A stretch of 64,000 nucleotides of DNA from assembly GCA_902535155.1 (NCBI GenBank), contig CACASB010000001.1, positions 1 through 64,000 of the forward strand. The letters are read 5' to 3'. Of this stretch, positions 31,092 to 51,077 are shown one piece after another. The stretch is from an uncultured Pelagibacteraceae bacterium. Lineage in GTDB: Bacteria > Pseudomonadota > Alphaproteobacteria > Pelagibacterales > Pelagibacteraceae. Every line of letters starts with the position of its first letter. Within the stretch, counting starts at the first letter, position 1. The translations under genes and the position numbers were made by a program. The notes beneath the pieces were generated by a model. That model was not told the origin of the DNA and made no database searches. It was given only the letters and a program-made list of their open reading frames with translations.

Positions 31092-32098
31092 TTTTGAAAT
31101 CCTATGAAATAAATAAAAAAGATATTTCAAGTTTCAATCTTATTTTAGTTTATGGAGAAAATACTGGATTAAAAAAAGAGATTATAAACATAATAAAAAA
31201 AAAATTTTCCGGAAAAGAAATTAAGTATGACGAAATAGATGTTTTAAAAAATAAATTACAATTCTTTAATGAATTTAAAAATAGATCATTATTTGATGAA
31301 CAAAAAATTTACATTATAGACAAATGTTCAGATAAAATATCAGAGATTATTTTTAATTTACATGAGGACGAGATCGATGACCCAATTATAATAAGTTGTG
31401 GAGTTCTTGAAAAAAAATCTAAACTTAGGAATTTAATTGAAAAATCTAAAAAATCTATAATTATACCTACATATAAAGATAACTCTGAGTCTTTGATTAA
31501 TATTGCAAAAAAAATTTTTGATGAAAAAAAAATTAGTGTGTCCTATGAAACGTTAAATCTGCTTGCTAACAGATGTAATGGAGATAGAGGGCATCTTATG
31601 TATGAGCTAGACAAAATTTCAAATTATTCATCCGATAAAAAGGTTATATCTTTAAAAGAAATATCTACACTTACTAATTTATCTCAGAATTATAGCGCAG
31701 CTGAACTTGCGGATGCATCATTAAGTAAAAATATAAAAAGGACTAGGGAAATTCTTAATGAAAATAATTATTCACAGGAAGATACTTTTTTTATTTTAAG
31801 AGTTTTTCTTCAAAAAGCAAAAAAAATACTAAATCTTTTAGAAAATATGAAGAATGAAAAAGATATAGAAAAAGTAGTAGCTGTGCATAAACCACCAATA
31901 TTTTGGAAAGATAAACCTATGGTAATAAAACAACTCAAATTATGGTCTTTTTTAACTATAAGAGATCTAATTTATAACTTGAATGATTTAGAAATTGAAA
32001 TAAAAAAAAATAATAATCTAAATTTAGTTTTATTAAAAAACTTTATTTACGAGATATTAGAAAAAGATACTAATAATTCTTCTTTATCGTCTCAATAA
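31088..32098 (+). CDS. holA: DNA polymerase III subunit delta
   Basis: LILVYGENTGLKKE, RCNGDRGHLMYELDKI. Confidence 0.92.
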   Translation: MILKSYEINKKDISSFNLILVYGENTGLKKEIINIIKKKFSGKEIKYDEIDVLKNKLQFFNEFKNRSLFDEQKIYIIDKCSDKISEIIFNLHEDEIDDPIIISCGVLEKKSKLRNLIEKSKKSIIIPTYKDNSESLINIAKKIFDEKKISVSYETLNLLANRCNGDRGHLMYELDKISNYSSDKKVISLKEISTLTNLSQNYSAAELADASLSKNIKRTREILNENNYSQEDTFFILRVFLQKAKKILNLLENMKNEKDIEKVVAVHKPPIFWKDKPMVIKQLKLWSFLTIRDLIYNLNDLEIEIKKNNNLNLVLLKNFIYEILEKDTNNSSLSSQ

Positions 32099-32912
32099 TT
32101 CTATTAAGTTGATCTAACTCTTTATAATTAAAAATTATAGATCCTTTATTATTTTTTTTGTTTTTTATCTCAACACTCATACCAATTTTTTCCATGAGAT
32201 TATGCTCTAATATTCTAATATTTGGATCTTTGTGACTTGCTAATTTTTTACTAGGTGTTTTATATGCCCTAACTAGATTTTCCGTTTGTCTAACAGATAA
32301 TTTTTTTGATAAAATTTTTTTTGTAATTGATAAACAATTTTCTAGGCCAACTAAAATTTTAGCATGTCCTGGAGATATTTTGCTTTCTTTTATCAATTCA
32401 AGCACTTCATTGGGCAAGCTTAGTAACCTTAATGAGTTAGTTATATGACTTCGACTCTTTCCGATAAACTTAGCGACTTGCTCTTGATCATAAGAGAATT
32501 CATCTATTAATTTTTTGTAACCCTCTGCCTCCTCAATAGCATTTAAGTCGTGTCTTTGTACGTTTTCAACTATTCCGAATTCTAGTGCTTTTTTATCGTC
32601 TGCTTCTATCACTACAATTGGGACTTCGTGTAAACCTGCATTTTGGGCAGCAAGCCACCTTCTTTCGCCAGCAATTATTTCGTATTTGCTATCTCCGTTT
32701 GAATTCCTAACAATTATTGGCTGAATAATTCCTCTTGATTTTATAGACTCTGTTAATTCATTTAAACTTTCTTCATCAAATTTTTTTCTCGGTTGATATT
32801 TATTTCTTGTGAGATCACTTATATTAGCTTTAGTACTTGATGTTACTTTTCCCTCACCAATTAAAGACGATAAACCTCTACCAAGTCCCTTTTTACTTTT
32901 AAAGCTTATCAT
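32070..32912 (-). CDS. parB: Chromosome partitioning protein ParB
   Basis: KKGLGRGLSSLIGE, NKYQPRKKFD, EIIAGERRWLAAQ. Confidence 0.97.
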   Translation of the reverse strand: MISFKSKKGLGRGLSSLIGEGKVTSSTKANISDLTRNKYQPRKKFDEESLNELTESIKSRGIIQPIIVRNSNGDSKYEIIAGERRWLAAQNAGLHEVPIVVIEADDKKALEFGIVENVQRHDLNAIEEAEGYKKLIDEFSYDQEQVAKFIGKSRSHITNSLRLLSLPNEVLELIKESKISPGHAKILVGLENCLSITKKILSKKLSVRQTENLVRAYKTPSKKLASHKDPNIRILEHNLMEKIGMSVEIKNKKNNKGSIIFNYKELDQLNRIIETIKKNY

Positions 32913-33709
32913 GCAGCAGTTTCTAAACTTTCTTCTTGAGCTAAAAATTCTTCTGTAAAACTAATATATGACTTGCTACCTGGGCATGATTTGTCATAAA
33001 ATATAACTGGCATACCGTGCGATGGAGCTTCCGATAATCTTACATTTCTTGGTACAACATTTTTGTAAACTTTTTCTTTAAAATAATTTCTTGCCTCAGT
33101 TTCAACCTCGTTAGAGAGGTTGTTTCTCTTATCGTACATGGTTAAAAGAATACCTCTAATTATTAGTTCGGGATTTAATCCTACTTTAATCCTCTCAATA
33201 GTTTTAATAAGTTGAGTAATACCCTCTAGGGCAAAAAATTCTGCCTGAAGAGGTACTAGGAGAGAGTGAGAGGATACTAATGCCATAACAGTCAACAAGC
33301 TAAGGGATGGAGGGCAATCAATAAGCACATAATCGTATAGTCCTCCAGAATCGTTTAAATATGCGGTCAATTTCTCCTTTAAGATATAAGCTCTACGACC
33401 ATCATCAGCTGTTTCTACTTCCAATCCAGATAGATCTACATTTGAGGTGATAATATCAAGATTAGAAAACTTTGTTTTTAAAATTGCTTCATCAATTTTT
33501 TTTGCTCCACTCAAAACTTGATAAATTGAATTAGAAGATTGATCAATATTTGATAATCCTAAACCTGTTGTAGCATTTCCTTGTGGATCTAAATCTATCA
33601 CTAAAATTTTCTTGTTATTTAAAGAAAGTCCTGCCGCTAAATTTATCACTGTTGTAGTTTTGCCTACTCCCCCCTTTTGATTTATTATTGATATAATTTT
33701 TTCTTTCAT
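32909..33709 (-). CDS. parA: Chromosome partitioning ATPase ParA
   Basis: NQKGGVGKTTTVINLA, DLDPQGNATTGLG. Confidence 0.98.
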   Translation of the reverse strand: MKEKIISIINQKGGVGKTTTVINLAAGLSLNNKKILVIDLDPQGNATTGLGLSNIDQSSNSIYQVLSGAKKIDEAILKTKFSNLDIITSNVDLSGLEVETADDGRRAYILKEKLTAYLNDSGGLYDYVLIDCPPSLSLLTVMALVSSHSLLVPLQAEFFALEGITQLIKTIERIKVGLNPELIIRGILLTMYDKRNNLSNEVETEARNYFKEKVYKNVVPRNVRLSEAPSHGMPVIFYDKSCPGSKSYISFTEEFLAQEESLETAA

Positions 33710-34341
33710 ATTTTTCTTAAATTATTTATTTTTACGATCACAGAATTCACATCTGTTAAACTTTTTATAATTTGATAATCAAACTTCCAGGATTTTAAGC
33801 ATTCATTAATTACAACTCTTCCACTTTTACCTAAGAAAAATATTAACCTGTTATATTGAACAAATTTTTTGTCTATTAATTCTAATATTGTTTGAAGTGG
33901 TTTGAATGCTCTAGCTATAATTATGTCTGCTTTCAATTTCCTCTCCTCAAAAATGTTTTTTTGTTTTACTTCGGCATTCAAATCAAAGTGCTTGATCATC
34001 TTTCTTAAAAAATTGCTTTTCTTCTGACTTTTTTCATAAAGTTCAAACTTTATTGTTGATCCTTTTTTTTTGAAAATAATTGCTAAAACTAAGCCTGGAA
34101 GACCAGATCCTGACCCTAGGTCTACACAAGTTTTAGCGTTTTTATCAATAATATCAATTACTTGCGCTGAATCTATTATATGTCTTTTGATTGAGTCCCT
34201 CTCTGAAGATTTGCTTATTAGGTTCATTATTTTGTTCTCGCTTAATAAAAATGATCTGAATTCTTCTAGGGCGGGAAATGTTTCACGTGAAACGTTTAAT
34301 GTTTCTAATTGAGAATATTTTTTAAGATTTGATTCGATCAA
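33706..34341 (-). CDS. rsmG: 16S rRNA (guanine527-N7)-methyltransferase
   Basis: [18 protein letters not shown]-terminal NVSRETF. Confidence 0.95.
34279..34294. promoter_or_regulatory. parS centromere-like site
   Basis: TGTTTCACGTGAAACG; 14-bp perfect palindrome GTTTCACGTGAAAC, inside rsmG next to parAB. Confidence 0.92.
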
Positions 34342-39037: not shown

Positions 39038-39472
39038 CTACATAGGCTTTAAAATGGCTAAAAAAACTATCAATATTAATAAAACCGTGGGGATTTCGTT
39101 AATTATTCTAAAAAATTTAGGAGTGTTGTTATTAATGTTCTCATTGAAAGCCCTTAAACAATGTCCAAGATAAAAATGGTAACCTGTTAGAGTAATTACA
39201 GCGACTATTTTTATTAAAAACCATTTAGCTTGTAGTAATTCTATGCCTTGAAAATGAATTATGGATACACCAAAAATCCAAGATAACAACATTGCCGGAT
39301 ACATAATATAAAAGTAAAGGCGTTTTTCCATAATTTTAAAAACACTAGATATGTCATTATTTAATTTATTTTCTGAGTGATACACAAAAATCCTTGGTAA
39401 ATATAAAAGACCTGCCATCCAAGAAATAACCGCTATTAAATGTAAAGATTTTAAAACTAAATAAAGATTCAT
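39038..39472 (-). CDS. hemJ: Protoporphyrinogen oxidase HemJ-like
   Basis: SLHLIAVISWMAGLLYLPRIFVYH; next to hemH/hemE. Confidence 0.92.
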   Translation of the reverse strand: MNLYLVLKSLHLIAVISWMAGLLYLPRIFVYHSENKLNNDISSVFKIMEKRLYFYIMYPAMLLSWIFGVSIIHFQGIELLQAKWFLIKIVAVITLTGYHFYLGHCLRAFNENINNNTPKFFRIINEIPTVLLILIVFLAILKPM

Positions 39473-40470
39473 TTTTTTACCAAATAAGTATCCACCAAAT
39501 TTTGAAGTAAATTTATATGATCCTCATTATCATTTAAACATGGTATTAAATCAAAATTTTCCCCACCAGAATCAATGAAAGACTCTTTTCCTTGAATAGC
39601 TATTTCTTCTAATGTTTCTACACAGTCTGATGCGAAACCAGGACAAATAACTAATATATTCTTTTTTCCTTGCTTTGGAATTTCTTCTAAAGTTTTATCT
39701 GTATAAGGTGTTAGCCACTCCTGTGGGCCAAATCTTGATTGAAATGTTGTCATAATTTCAATACTTTTAAATTTTTCTTTTAAAAGCCTTGTGGTTTTCA
39801 TGCAATAACAGTGGTAAGGATCACCTTTTTCAAAATATTTTTTTGGTATTCCATGATATGATGCAATAATTAGATCTGGTTTCCAATTAATCTCAGAAAC
39901 TTTCTTTTCAATAGAATTCACAATTGCGTTAACATATAGGGAATTTTCCTCATAATGAGATACAATTTGTAAGCTTGGTTGCCACCTTAATTTCATTAAA
40001 GATCTAAATACTTCGTCACAAACTGTTGCTGTTGTTGGTGATGCATATTGTGGGTAAAGAGGTAATATTATTAAATTTTCACACCCTTTTTCTTTAAGGT
40101 CCTTAATCTTTCCTTTGATACTTGGTGATCCATATCTCATAGCAAAATCTACTATTACGTTTTCCATATTTAGTTTTTTGGATAATTTTTGCGTCTGCAT
40201 CATGGTATAATATCTAAGTGGAGACATATTTTTATCCTTCATCCAAATTTCTTTGTAAGCTTTTGCTGTTTTAGAAGGTCTAAATGTTAGTATAAAAAGA
40301 TTTAAAATTACCTGCCAAATAAGAGGGTTTACTTCTATTACTCTTCTATCAGATAAAAATTCTTTAAGGTATTTTCTTATATCCCACCACCCTGTGCTAT
40401 CTGGCGTACCAAGATTAATTAGCAACACTCCAGTTTTTCCATAGTTTACTTTAGGGTGATTTTCACTCAT
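39469..40470 (-). CDS. hemH: Ferrochelatase
   Basis: GVLLINLGTPDS, SYHGIPKKYFEKGDPYHCYC, QSRFGPQEWLTPYTD. Confidence 0.97.
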   Translation of the reverse strand: MSENHPKVNYGKTGVLLINLGTPDSTGWWDIRKYLKEFLSDRRVIEVNPLIWQVILNLFILTFRPSKTAKAYKEIWMKDKNMSPLRYYTMMQTQKLSKKLNMENVIVDFAMRYGSPSIKGKIKDLKEKGCENLIILPLYPQYASPTTATVCDEVFRSLMKLRWQPSLQIVSHYEENSLYVNAIVNSIEKKVSEINWKPDLIIASYHGIPKKYFEKGDPYHCYCMKTTRLLKEKFKSIEIMTTFQSRFGPQEWLTPYTDKTLEEIPKQGKKNILVICPGFASDCVETLEEIAIQGKESFIDSGGENFDLIPCLNDNEDHINLLQNLVDTYLVKK

Positions 40471-41468
40471 GAGTAATCTTTAACTAATTTTACTAAATAA
40501 TCTACCATACTTGGGTCGGTATTTGGTAGCACACCATGACCAAGATTAAAAATATATGGTTTATTTTTAAATGCATCTAAATATTTTATAACATTTGTTT
40601 GAAGGTCTTTTTTACTGCCAATTAAAAAATTAGGATTCAGTCCACCTTGTACGGTTACATCTATAGTTTCGGAAATCTCTTTTGGGTCAGCATCATAGTC
40701 TATACTAATAACGTCTGGCTTAACAGCACTCACATAGTTTTTATAATTATTAATTCCTTTTGGGAAACATATAACGGGTATATTTTTAGACTTTACAAAA
40801 TTAACCAGATTTCTAGTAGGCCTGTATACAAATTTGTCATAATCTTTTTCATCTAAAAGACCTACCCAACTATCAAATATTTGGATAATTGTTGCGCCGT
40901 TGCTAATTTGATTCTCAATGTGAATTTTAAGGAACTTTATTATAATTTTTAATAAATCGTCAATAAATTTTATGTCTTTTAGATTGCTGCCTATATCTTC
41001 ATTTTTAGGAGATTTCTTATTTAACATGTAAATTAAAATTGTCCAAGGAGCCCCTACAAAACCTATTAGGTCTTTATCTTTCAGCTCTACTTTATCTTTT
41101 GTTTTTTTTATAGCATTATAAACAGGTTTTAATTTTTCAGAAAATTCGGATTCTCCTATTTTTGAGATTTTAGGAAAATCAATGTCTCCTAATAGTGGCC
41201 CAAAATCTTTTTTAAACTTTACTGATTGACCTAGTGCATATGGAACTAACAAAATATCTGAAAATATTATTGCGGCATCGATATCAAATCTTTTTAGTGG
41301 TTGTACTGTGATTTCAGAAGATAAGTCTTCATCTAAACATAATTTTATAAAATCAGTGTTTTTTGACCTAATGTTTCTAAATTCTGGTAGATATCTACCC
41401 GCTTGTCTCATTAACCAAATACAATTAGTGTTTGATTTTTTATTTATACAATCTAGTAAAGCAGTCAT
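40467..41468 (-). CDS. hemE: Uroporphyrinogen decarboxylase
   Basis: WLMRQAGRYLPEFR, GFVGAPWTIL, NLGHGVLPNTDP. Confidence 0.97.
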   Translation of the reverse strand: MTALLDCINKKSNTNCIWLMRQAGRYLPEFRNIRSKNTDFIKLCLDEDLSSEITVQPLKRFDIDAAIIFSDILLVPYALGQSVKFKKDFGPLLGDIDFPKISKIGESEFSEKLKPVYNAIKKTKDKVELKDKDLIGFVGAPWTILIYMLNKKSPKNEDIGSNLKDIKFIDDLLKIIIKFLKIHIENQISNGATIIQIFDSWVGLLDEKDYDKFVYRPTRNLVNFVKSKNIPVICFPKGINNYKNYVSAVKPDVISIDYDADPKEISETIDVTVQGGLNPNFLIGSKKDLQTNVIKYLDAFKNKPYIFNLGHGVLPNTDPSMVDYLVKLVKDYS

Positions 41469-41752
41469 AATAATAGATATAGTAATACTTATATTATTTG
41501 TAGTAGAAATGTTAATATTGAATATTACTATTTTTTAACACTTTTATAACATTTTTTTCACATTTAATTTGTTTAAATAAATCATAAAAATTAAGGTGTT
41601 TTTATATATTATAATTTTTATTCAAAAATTAGTATATTGGTTATAAACATGTTTTAATATGTTATTAAAAAGCTTTTTTTTTACTTTAAATAATCAAATT
41701 TTTAGGTTTGTTTATAAATTAATATTAATACAAAAATCTTTATAATTTATAC
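41469..41752. other. Predicted chromosomal replication origin (oriC) region
   Basis: Gap between hemE and ppsR (DUF299), about 13% GC by hand count; divergent flanking genes; degenerate DnaA-box-like TTATAAACA at 41641-41649 and its reverse complement at 41709-41717. Confidence 0.65.
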
Positions 41753-44517: not shown

Positions 44518-45157
44518 TACAGAGACAACAGGCTTATCAGTAGCCAATGGTCACCGAATTGTTGAAATCGGGTGCATAGAACTAAAAAATCAAGTGCCCA
44601 CATCTAAAACTTTTCACTGTTATTTAAATCCCCAAAGAAAAGTTTCTGAGGATGCAATGAAAGTACACGGTTATACAGATGAGTTTTTATCCGATAAAAA
44701 GTTTTTCAGAGATATTGCGAATAATTTTTTAAGCTTCATTGAAAATAAAAAATTAGTAATTCATAATGCTGAATTCGACATTTCACATCTAAATAATGAG
44801 CTAAAATTAATTGGTAAAAATCCAATAAACAAAGAAAATGTTATTGATACATTAGATATAGCTAGGGAAAAATATCCCGGTTCTCAAATTAGTTTGGATG
44901 CACTTTGTAAAAGGTTTAGAATCGATAATTCAAGAAGAAAACTTCATACAGCATTAATTGACTGTGAGCTTTTATCTAAAGTTTATATTAATTTGATAGA
45001 TCAAAAAGAGCCAAAATTAGAGTTTGCTGCAGAAGAGTTAAAATCATTAAATAAAAATATAAAAATTGATTATTGTAAAAAGATTATTGGTCCATCTTTT
45101 GAGGAGGTGGAAAATCATAAAATATTTAAAAAAAAATATTTAAAAAAAAACGCTTAG
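44498..45157 (+). CDS. dnaQ: DNA polymerase III subunit epsilon
   Basis: VVLDTETTGLSVANGHRIVEIG, HNAEFDISHLN, HTALIDCELLSKVY. Confidence 0.97.
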   Translation: MIEVVLDTETTGLSVANGHRIVEIGCIELKNQVPTSKTFHCYLNPQRKVSEDAMKVHGYTDEFLSDKKFFRDIANNFLSFIENKKLVIHNAEFDISHLNNELKLIGKNPINKENVIDTLDIAREKYPGSQISLDALCKRFRIDNSRRKLHTALIDCELLSKVYINLIDQKEPKLEFAAEELKSLNKNIKIDYCKKIIGPSFEEVENHKIFKKKYLKKNA

Positions 45158-45576
45158 CCTTTTCTTTCTTCAAATAATTTTTTGAAATCTACTCTATTTT
45201 CAAATTTAACATCTGGGTAACCAGAATAGGTTAAAATATCTAGAAATATTTTTTCAATTTTAGGATAAACCTCTGTAGGAACATCTTTTAAAAAAATTGG
45301 TTCTAAAACTTCTTTAGTATTTACATCTTCATCAATTTTAACAATTACTGCATAAACCATTTCAAAATAACTATGTTTTATGCTTTCCTCATTTTCCTTA
45401 AATTTTGTTGATATTGATACTTCGGCCATTTTACTTTTTAGAGGCTTTGTATTGATATCAATAAATAGTTTATATTTTGAGATATTTTCTTTTGTAAAGA
45501 TGTAACTTTCAATGTCTTTAGTTTCAGCAGAAATATCTTTTATAAATTCCCCAAGTATTCTGTATTTTTTCTCCAT
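45154..45576 (-). CDS. secB: Protein-export chaperone SecB
   Basis: YRILGEFIKDISAE..., SecB-like fold and context. Confidence 0.85.
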   Translation of the reverse strand: MEKKYRILGEFIKDISAETKDIESYIFTKENISKYKLFIDINTKPLKSKMAEVSISTKFKENEESIKHSYFEMVYAVIVKIDEDVNTKEVLEPIFLKDVPTEVYPKIEKIFLDILTYSGYPDVKFENRVDFKKLFEERKG

Positions 45577-50222: not shown

Positions 50223-51077
50223 ATGAAAAATATTGACTTATCTACTTTAGAAGGAAAAAAAGTAACAGTTTTAATTGAGAAGGCAGATAAGTTATTAAAA
50301 GAAAATCTTGAAGGCAAAATTCATGCTCATAAGATTTATAATTTAATTTTAGATCAAATTCCTACGAAATATGATGAATCTAATTTACATGTACTAAGAG
50401 GTGTGTTGAGGCAAAAAATCTGGAATTGTGAAAGAAGCTTTTTTTGGAATGAAAAATTCTTTTCACAATCTGGTCAAGATAAGATTTTAAAAGATCACTT
50501 TTTTAAGGATAAAAAAAAAGGGTTCTTTGTGGAGATCGGAGCGTTTGATGGGATTGAAGGAAGCAATTGCTTTTATTTTGAAAATGCTCAGGCATGGGAC
50601 GGTATTGCAATTGAGGCATCAAAAATTCAATTCAATAAGTTAAAAAAAAATAGAAAATGTAAATTATTCAATGAAGCAATAAACTCAAAAGAAAAAGATG
50701 TGGAATTTATTGAAGTTCAGGAGGGACTTACTCAAATGAGTGGTATAGATGATGAAAATTTTATAGCCAAAGAATTTATAAACAAAGACCCAAACAGTAA
50801 GATAGGTAAATTTAAGACAAAAACAGTGACCTTTGAAAAAATTGTACCCACTAATATGATCATAGATTATTTGTCTTTGGACATAGAGGGTGGAGAAATG
50901 GATGTTTTGGAGTCTATTGATTTTAGCAAATATAAAATAAAGGTTATTTCAGTTGAAAATAATAGTCCTGATAAAATTAATTTTGAATTATTCTTTAAAA
51001 AAAAAAATTATTCGTTTTTTGATAGAGTGGGACAAGATGAAATATTTTTTAATAATGATTTCTTTAAACTAAACTAA
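50223..51077 (+). CDS. FkbM-family methyltransferase inside the his operon
   Basis: FFVEIGAFDGIEGSNCFYFE, YLSLDIEGGEMDVLESI. Confidence 0.88.
   Translation: MKNIDLSTLEGKKVTVLIEKADKLLKENLEGKIHAHKIYNLILDQIPTKYDESNLHVLRGVLRQKIWNCERSFFWNEKFFSQSGQDKILKDHFFKDKKKGFFVEIGAFDGIEGSNCFYFENAQAWDGIAIEASKIQFNKLKKNRKCKLFNEAINSKEKDVEFIEVQEGLTQMSGIDDENFIAKEFINKDPNSKIGKFKTKTVTFEKIVPTNMIIDYLSLDIEGGEMDVLESIDFSKYKIKVISVENNSPDKINFELFFKKKNYSFFDRVGQDEIFFNNDFFKLN

Follow-up and report, generated by a model that had tools for sequence, protein, structure and literature searches.

The experimentally mapped replication origin of Caulobacter crescentus (Cori) and the predicted origin of Rickettsia prowazekii lie between hemE and a gene of the COG1806 (DUF299) family, in an intergenic region that is rich in AT and carries several DnaA boxes (PMC1914354); a parS site is located a few kb away. 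The basal unwinding system (BUS) of Bacillus subtilis and many other bacteria is made up of a DnaA box, a spacer and DnaA-trios (PMC8287927, PMC6669920), and the oriC of Pelagibacter HTCC1062 has been stated to be identified by hand, its anatomy not being given (PMC4033161). No description of SAR11 DnaA boxes or trios was found in open-licence papers; DoriC may list SAR11 entries. Few cells in the ocean are as abundant as SAR11 bacteria, which are mostly known as fragments. Here we analyse a 64-kb stretch of DNA from a member of this family (below, "the window"), in which a first-pass annotation had predicted a chromosomal origin in the gap between hemE and ppsR. Skew in relatives, conservation of the gap, enrichment of DnaA boxes and a trio/box module all support that prediction, and the 284-bp gap at positions 41469–41752 is very probably the oriC of this SAR11-family bacterium.

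The genes flanking the gap, and their order, are those of the Caulobacter and Rickettsia loci. To the left hemE (40467–41468, minus strand; TIGR01464) and to the right ppsR (DUF299/PF03618; 41753–42577, plus strand; family models) are both transcribed away from the gap, as had been read from the open reading frames, and family models agree with the order proposed at the time, rho, hemJ, hemH and hemE being on the minus strand to the left and ppsR, maf, aroE, coaE and dnaQ on the plus strand to the right. The parABS locus had been placed about 7 kb away; parA (32909–33709) and parB (32070–32912), both on the minus strand, are confirmed, and a parS centromere site with one mismatch (34279–34294, plus strand) lies 7.2 kb from the gap, so that all three are to its left at 7–9 kb. 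The complete same-genus chromosome G012 (one contig, 1,343,202 bp) has a single parS-like site genome-wide, 7.5 kb from its own gap. Among other alphaproteobacterial families, represented by one locus each, 27 of 28 have hemE across the gap, and their hemE/ppsR gaps are mostly 330–530 bp long, compared with ~280 bp in SAR11. Judged by its sequence, the location is that of an ordinary alphaproteobacterial origin, with boxes that have drifted towards AT.

The gap contains 36 G+C in 284 bp (12.7%, close to the earlier hand count of about 13%), and is the lowest-GC stretch of its length in the window, with only 0.011% of such stretches equally low. Because the complete relative G012 carries many equally AT-rich spots (at least 15 other 250-bp stretches at 10–13% GC, its own gap having 14.6%), AT-richness is weak evidence and was dropped as an argument for an origin; extreme AT content alone is undiagnostic.

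The genome from which the window comes is in 36 contigs and 75% complete, and GC skew was run on the relatives G012 and G067, the latter from another genus. The cumulative skew of G012 has its minimum at 1,290,841 and its maximum at 615,774; the valley is flat (~1.225–1.31 Mb), and the gap, at 1.262 Mb, falls within it, with a cumulative skew of −3127 versus −3253 at the minimum. A gene-strand-corrected fit to third codon positions gives a best origin at 1.272 Mb, resolved to no better than tens of kb (bootstrap 95% interval ~1.16–1.32 Mb), and its penalty is delta chi2 2.2 at the gap versus 13.4 at dnaA, which is at 1.199 Mb, 62 kb from the gap. In G067 (800 of 1,211 kb covered) the minimum is at 159,778, the gap at ~141.6 kb, a perfect parS at 121,789 and dnaA at 69 kb. 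Both relatives thus have a skew switch at or near the hemE/ppsR gap, to within tens of kb. The first-pass annotation had named a skew minimum elsewhere, for example at dnaA, as the observation that would count against it; in G012 the gap is inside the valley and dnaA is disfavoured. An origin located at dnaA or close to it, as many bacteria have, with hemE/ppsR as a syntenic relic 62–72 kb off, would fit the fact that in every complete genome dnaA is found in the same region, ~62–72 kb away from ppsR, and that the sequence upstream of dnaA is likewise very AT-rich. Such an origin is nevertheless extremely unlikely and was rejected in view of the fit penalty at dnaA, the concordant skew of G067 and the finding that 4.9 kb of sequence preceding 15 dnaA genes holds only one relaxed DnaA box, where a dnaA-linked oriC should have boxes adjoining dnaA.

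No strict TTATCCACA box is present in the gap of the window or in any of 75 same-genus gaps, so the absence first noted for this gap holds more widely, and the suspicion that the box set is degenerate was borne out, specifically by TTATNAACA and TTWTNCACA in place of TTATCCACA. Inverted copies of TTATAAACA had been put forward as the best candidates; the sites at 41641–41649 (plus strand) and 41709–41717 (minus strand) were correctly seen, but the list was incomplete, lacking TTTTTCACA, its 11-bp partners TTTATAACA and TTTTTAACA, the inverted TGTTATTAA and the trio/box module at 41489–41518. Three of the boxes form plus-strand direct repeats with an 11-bp period, namely the weak boxes TTTTTAACA (41532–41540) and TTTATAACA (41543–41551) and the exact TTWTNCACA match TTTTTCACA (41554–41562). 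The weak box TTATAAACA at 41641, whose position is conserved in the alignment of relatives, makes up a conserved inverted pair with the weak box TGTTATTAA to its right (41660–41668, minus strand), and the box-like TGTTTATAA at 41709–41717 is common to the closest relatives only. A further minus-strand box, TGTTAATAT (41510–41518; TGTGAATAA or TGTTAATAA in relatives), recognised by alignment and profile, adjoins the trios. In the gap of the window alone TTWTNMACA occurs four times versus 0.47 expected (P about 0.001).

Aligning this gap across SAR11 genomes, a check suggested at the outset, showed that its length is kept, that the boxes are enriched and conserved in position and that a DnaA-trio module is present. 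In the 75 same-genus genomes the gap is 261–289 bp long with a median identity of 57%, in a genus whose HemE proteins are often ~60% identical. TTWTNCACA, which was fixed before counting, occurs 75 times in these gaps versus 5.6 expected from dinucleotide shuffles, and TTATNAACA, which was taken from the alignment and then counted, 175 times versus 12.4. The relaxed boxes are ~13-fold enriched, partly as 11-bp-phased direct repeats (spacings of 11 and 22 bp occur 35 and 32 times versus about 0.1), and the enrichment of control motifs is much weaker. As the gaps are related sequences the box counts are not independent; a set thinned to 19 gaps below 70% identity gave 21 versus 1.45 for TTWTNCACA and 35 versus 3.06 for TTATNAACA. 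In the other genera of the family TTATNAACA is retained (26 versus 1.9) and TTWTNCACA hardly at all (3 versus 0.9), and no other among 219 intergenic regions of G012 equals its gap in number of TTWTNCACA or TTATNMACA. The DnaA-box cluster expected of a hemE/COG1806-type oriC is therefore present above chance, in the form of relaxed boxes only.

The SAR11 gap differs from the Caulobacter and Rickettsia origins in its AT-shifted boxes, with none at consensus, and in showing no enrichment of the sites for CtrA (TTAA-N7-TTAA, 18 versus 11.5 expected, sd 4.7, not significant) or of CcrM GANTC sites (2 versus 4.9), and no clear enrichment of IHF sites (one in the window; 3 versus 1.6 in 19 gaps). 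Missing CtrA sites are not decisive, because some accepted Wolbachia and Ehrlichia origins lack them too (PMC1914354).

At the hemE end of the gap the DnaA box TGTTAATAT is part of a module TTATATTATTTGTAGTAG-AAA-TGTTAATAT (41489–41518), which has a BUS-like layout of 3-nt-periodic DnaA-trios, a 3–4-nt spacer and a TGTKAATAA box. The DnaA-trio-like element TTATATTATTTGTAGTAG (41489–41506, plus strand; found with the profile) has a 5'-T-A-N periodicity of 3 and ends in the trios TAG TAG, and the spacer AAA (41507–41509, plus strand) is 3 nt here and 4 nt in most relatives. In 83–99% of 72 gaps there is a T at each of positions −19, −16, −13, −10 and −7 from the TGTKAATAA box, mostly followed by A, with a 4-nt spacer and then the box. 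Of 97 gaps, 89 have at least three T-A-N trios among the five, consecutive or not (the mean being 3.46 versus 1.74 in shuffled sequences). The strict published rule, which asks for at least three consecutive middle-A trios next to a DnaA box with a spacer of no more than 16 nt, holds for many relatives and not for the window, where the trios TAT TAT TTG TAG TAG include four of five T-A-N with a break at the third; in the genus TAT and TTG are as frequent as TAG. A leave-clade-out profile, whose training gaps all shared under 62% identity with the target, ranked the module first in the complete G012 genome (24.6 versus 7.3 for the next) and first in the window (17.2 versus 2.1), the latter with a spacer range of 3–5 nt that was set after the 3-nt spacer of the window had been seen; with the spacer fixed at 4 nt the module of the window ranks only 60.

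In its 3-nt repeats in T-A-N register, its short spacer and the DnaA box facing the repeats, the module is like the BUS, and the order of the parts matches (PMC8287927). It is unlike the BUS in its TGTKAATAA box, in a spacer that is AT-rich instead of GC-rich and in the drift of the genus trios to TAT and TTG; in the sister family f2 the layout is almost textbook (TAGTAGTAGTAG-TTGTGCC-TGTG). The strand of the module is presumably that of the B. subtilis BUS as well. In nearly all gaps of the other alphaproteobacterial families a de novo motif search found a 3-nt repeat rich in G and T, mostly on the hemE side and often running into TGTGGAT. The SAR11 gap has drifted too far towards AT for a trio profile from those families to find it genome-wide (rank about 14,500 of 2.7 million), and kinship of the modules therefore rests on position, strand and pattern.

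Since every one of these sequence signals is DnaA-related, and skew does not separate sites a few kb apart, the gap might also be a place where DnaA binds for regulation or titration (at DnaA-controlled promoters, or as a datA/DARS-like element), near the origin rather than at it. Titration has no need of a trio unwinding module, the same location is the mapped origin in Caulobacter (PMC1914354) and the module ranks first in the whole of G012, and we give this possibility very little weight, as little as an origin at dnaA.

The surroundings of the gap change in two lineages. In genus g7 the heme genes are gone from the locus and the order is rho-[346–353 bp]-ppsR, and in sister family f2 (G175–G192), where none of 18 genomes has a PpsR match, it is hemE-[271–280 bp]-maf in the four genomes examined. 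The g7 and f2 gaps retain box or trio motifs, with box counts that differ by genome (one f2 gap is without any TTWTNMACA), and two f2 genomes have near-textbook trios, the one given above and TAGTAGTAGTTGTACC-TGTGAAT. This persistence suggests INDEPENDENCE from flanking genes, the gap and its motifs remaining after loss of hemE or ppsR. It bears on the simplest other account of the gap, that it is only the divergent hemE/ppsR promoter region, its AT-richness and repeats being promoter architecture and the origin lying elsewhere. Divergent genes do need promoters in the gap, and a very AT-rich gap is like many other SAR11 intergenic spots; because the motifs persist without hemE (g7) or ppsR (f2), however, a plain promoter reading fails, and it also leaves the 11-bp-phased DnaA boxes, the trio module and the skew switch unexplained, so we regard it as very unlikely. 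We note that the g7 genomes that have lost hemE, hemH and hemJ beside the origin are G067, G075 and G087 (L189–L191), and that a distant HemE homologue (35%) is found elsewhere in G067 and G075. HemE and PpsR were both not found in G139, G148 and G172 (94–96% complete), which reflects either a real loss or a break in the assembly at the origin, and a search of viral contigs for PpsR relatives found none.

The sequences show where the gap lies, the skew, how the boxes are enriched and spaced, the trios and the conservation; if the gap is the origin, a course of DnaA binding, melting and helicase loading can be inferred. DnaA would bind the array of weak boxes, that is, the minus-strand box at the hemE end, the three 11-bp-phased plus-strand boxes and the inverted pair in the middle. 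A DnaA filament would start at the hemE-end box, which adjoins the 3-nt-periodic DnaA-trios, pass onto the trio strand and unwind the AT-rich DNA in the direction of hemE; melting would let DnaB load, forks would depart both ways from the gap, and ParABS at 7 kb would segregate the new origins. The DNA-binding helix of DnaA is canonical (RDHTT), so it does not account for the shift to TTATNAACA; our simplest guess for the drift from TTATCCACA to TTATNAACA is AT mutation pressure combined with cooperative binding. More tentatively, and with the balance somewhat against it, the origin of the SAR11 family may have gone over to a private box code, TTATNAACA, and have given up consensus DnaA boxes altogether, initiation proceeding through cooperative phased weak boxes and trios and without CtrA or GANTC-methylation control. 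If so, the loss of these controls is perhaps affordable for a slow-growing, streamlined cell.

A base-level model of the origin that can be used on contigs would allow growth rates to be estimated from metagenomes by origin-to-terminus coverage, and would give draft SAR11 genomes a correct zero point. Since the origin module persists without hemE or ppsR, a sequence signature can replace the flanking-gene rule for alphaproteobacterial origins.

Several neighbouring genes are of interest in their own right. The heme cassette adjoining the origin (39038–41468 in the window; L164, L167–L172) differs between genomes, its slot being occupied by two distantly related ferrochelatases (~30% identical) in different genomes, and the neighbour is HemJ in some genomes but in others a protoporphyrinogen dehydrogenase of the HemG type. 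In the complete genome G088 (C1:358203–359182; L168, L175) the origin-side hemE is in two frames, the result of a frameshift or a sequencing error. The gene at 45154–45576 of the window encodes a SecB that scores 48.7 against a curated cut-off of 143 bits and is hence very divergent, and an FkbM-family methyltransferase gene (50223–51077) lies within the his operon, flanked by hisH and hisA.
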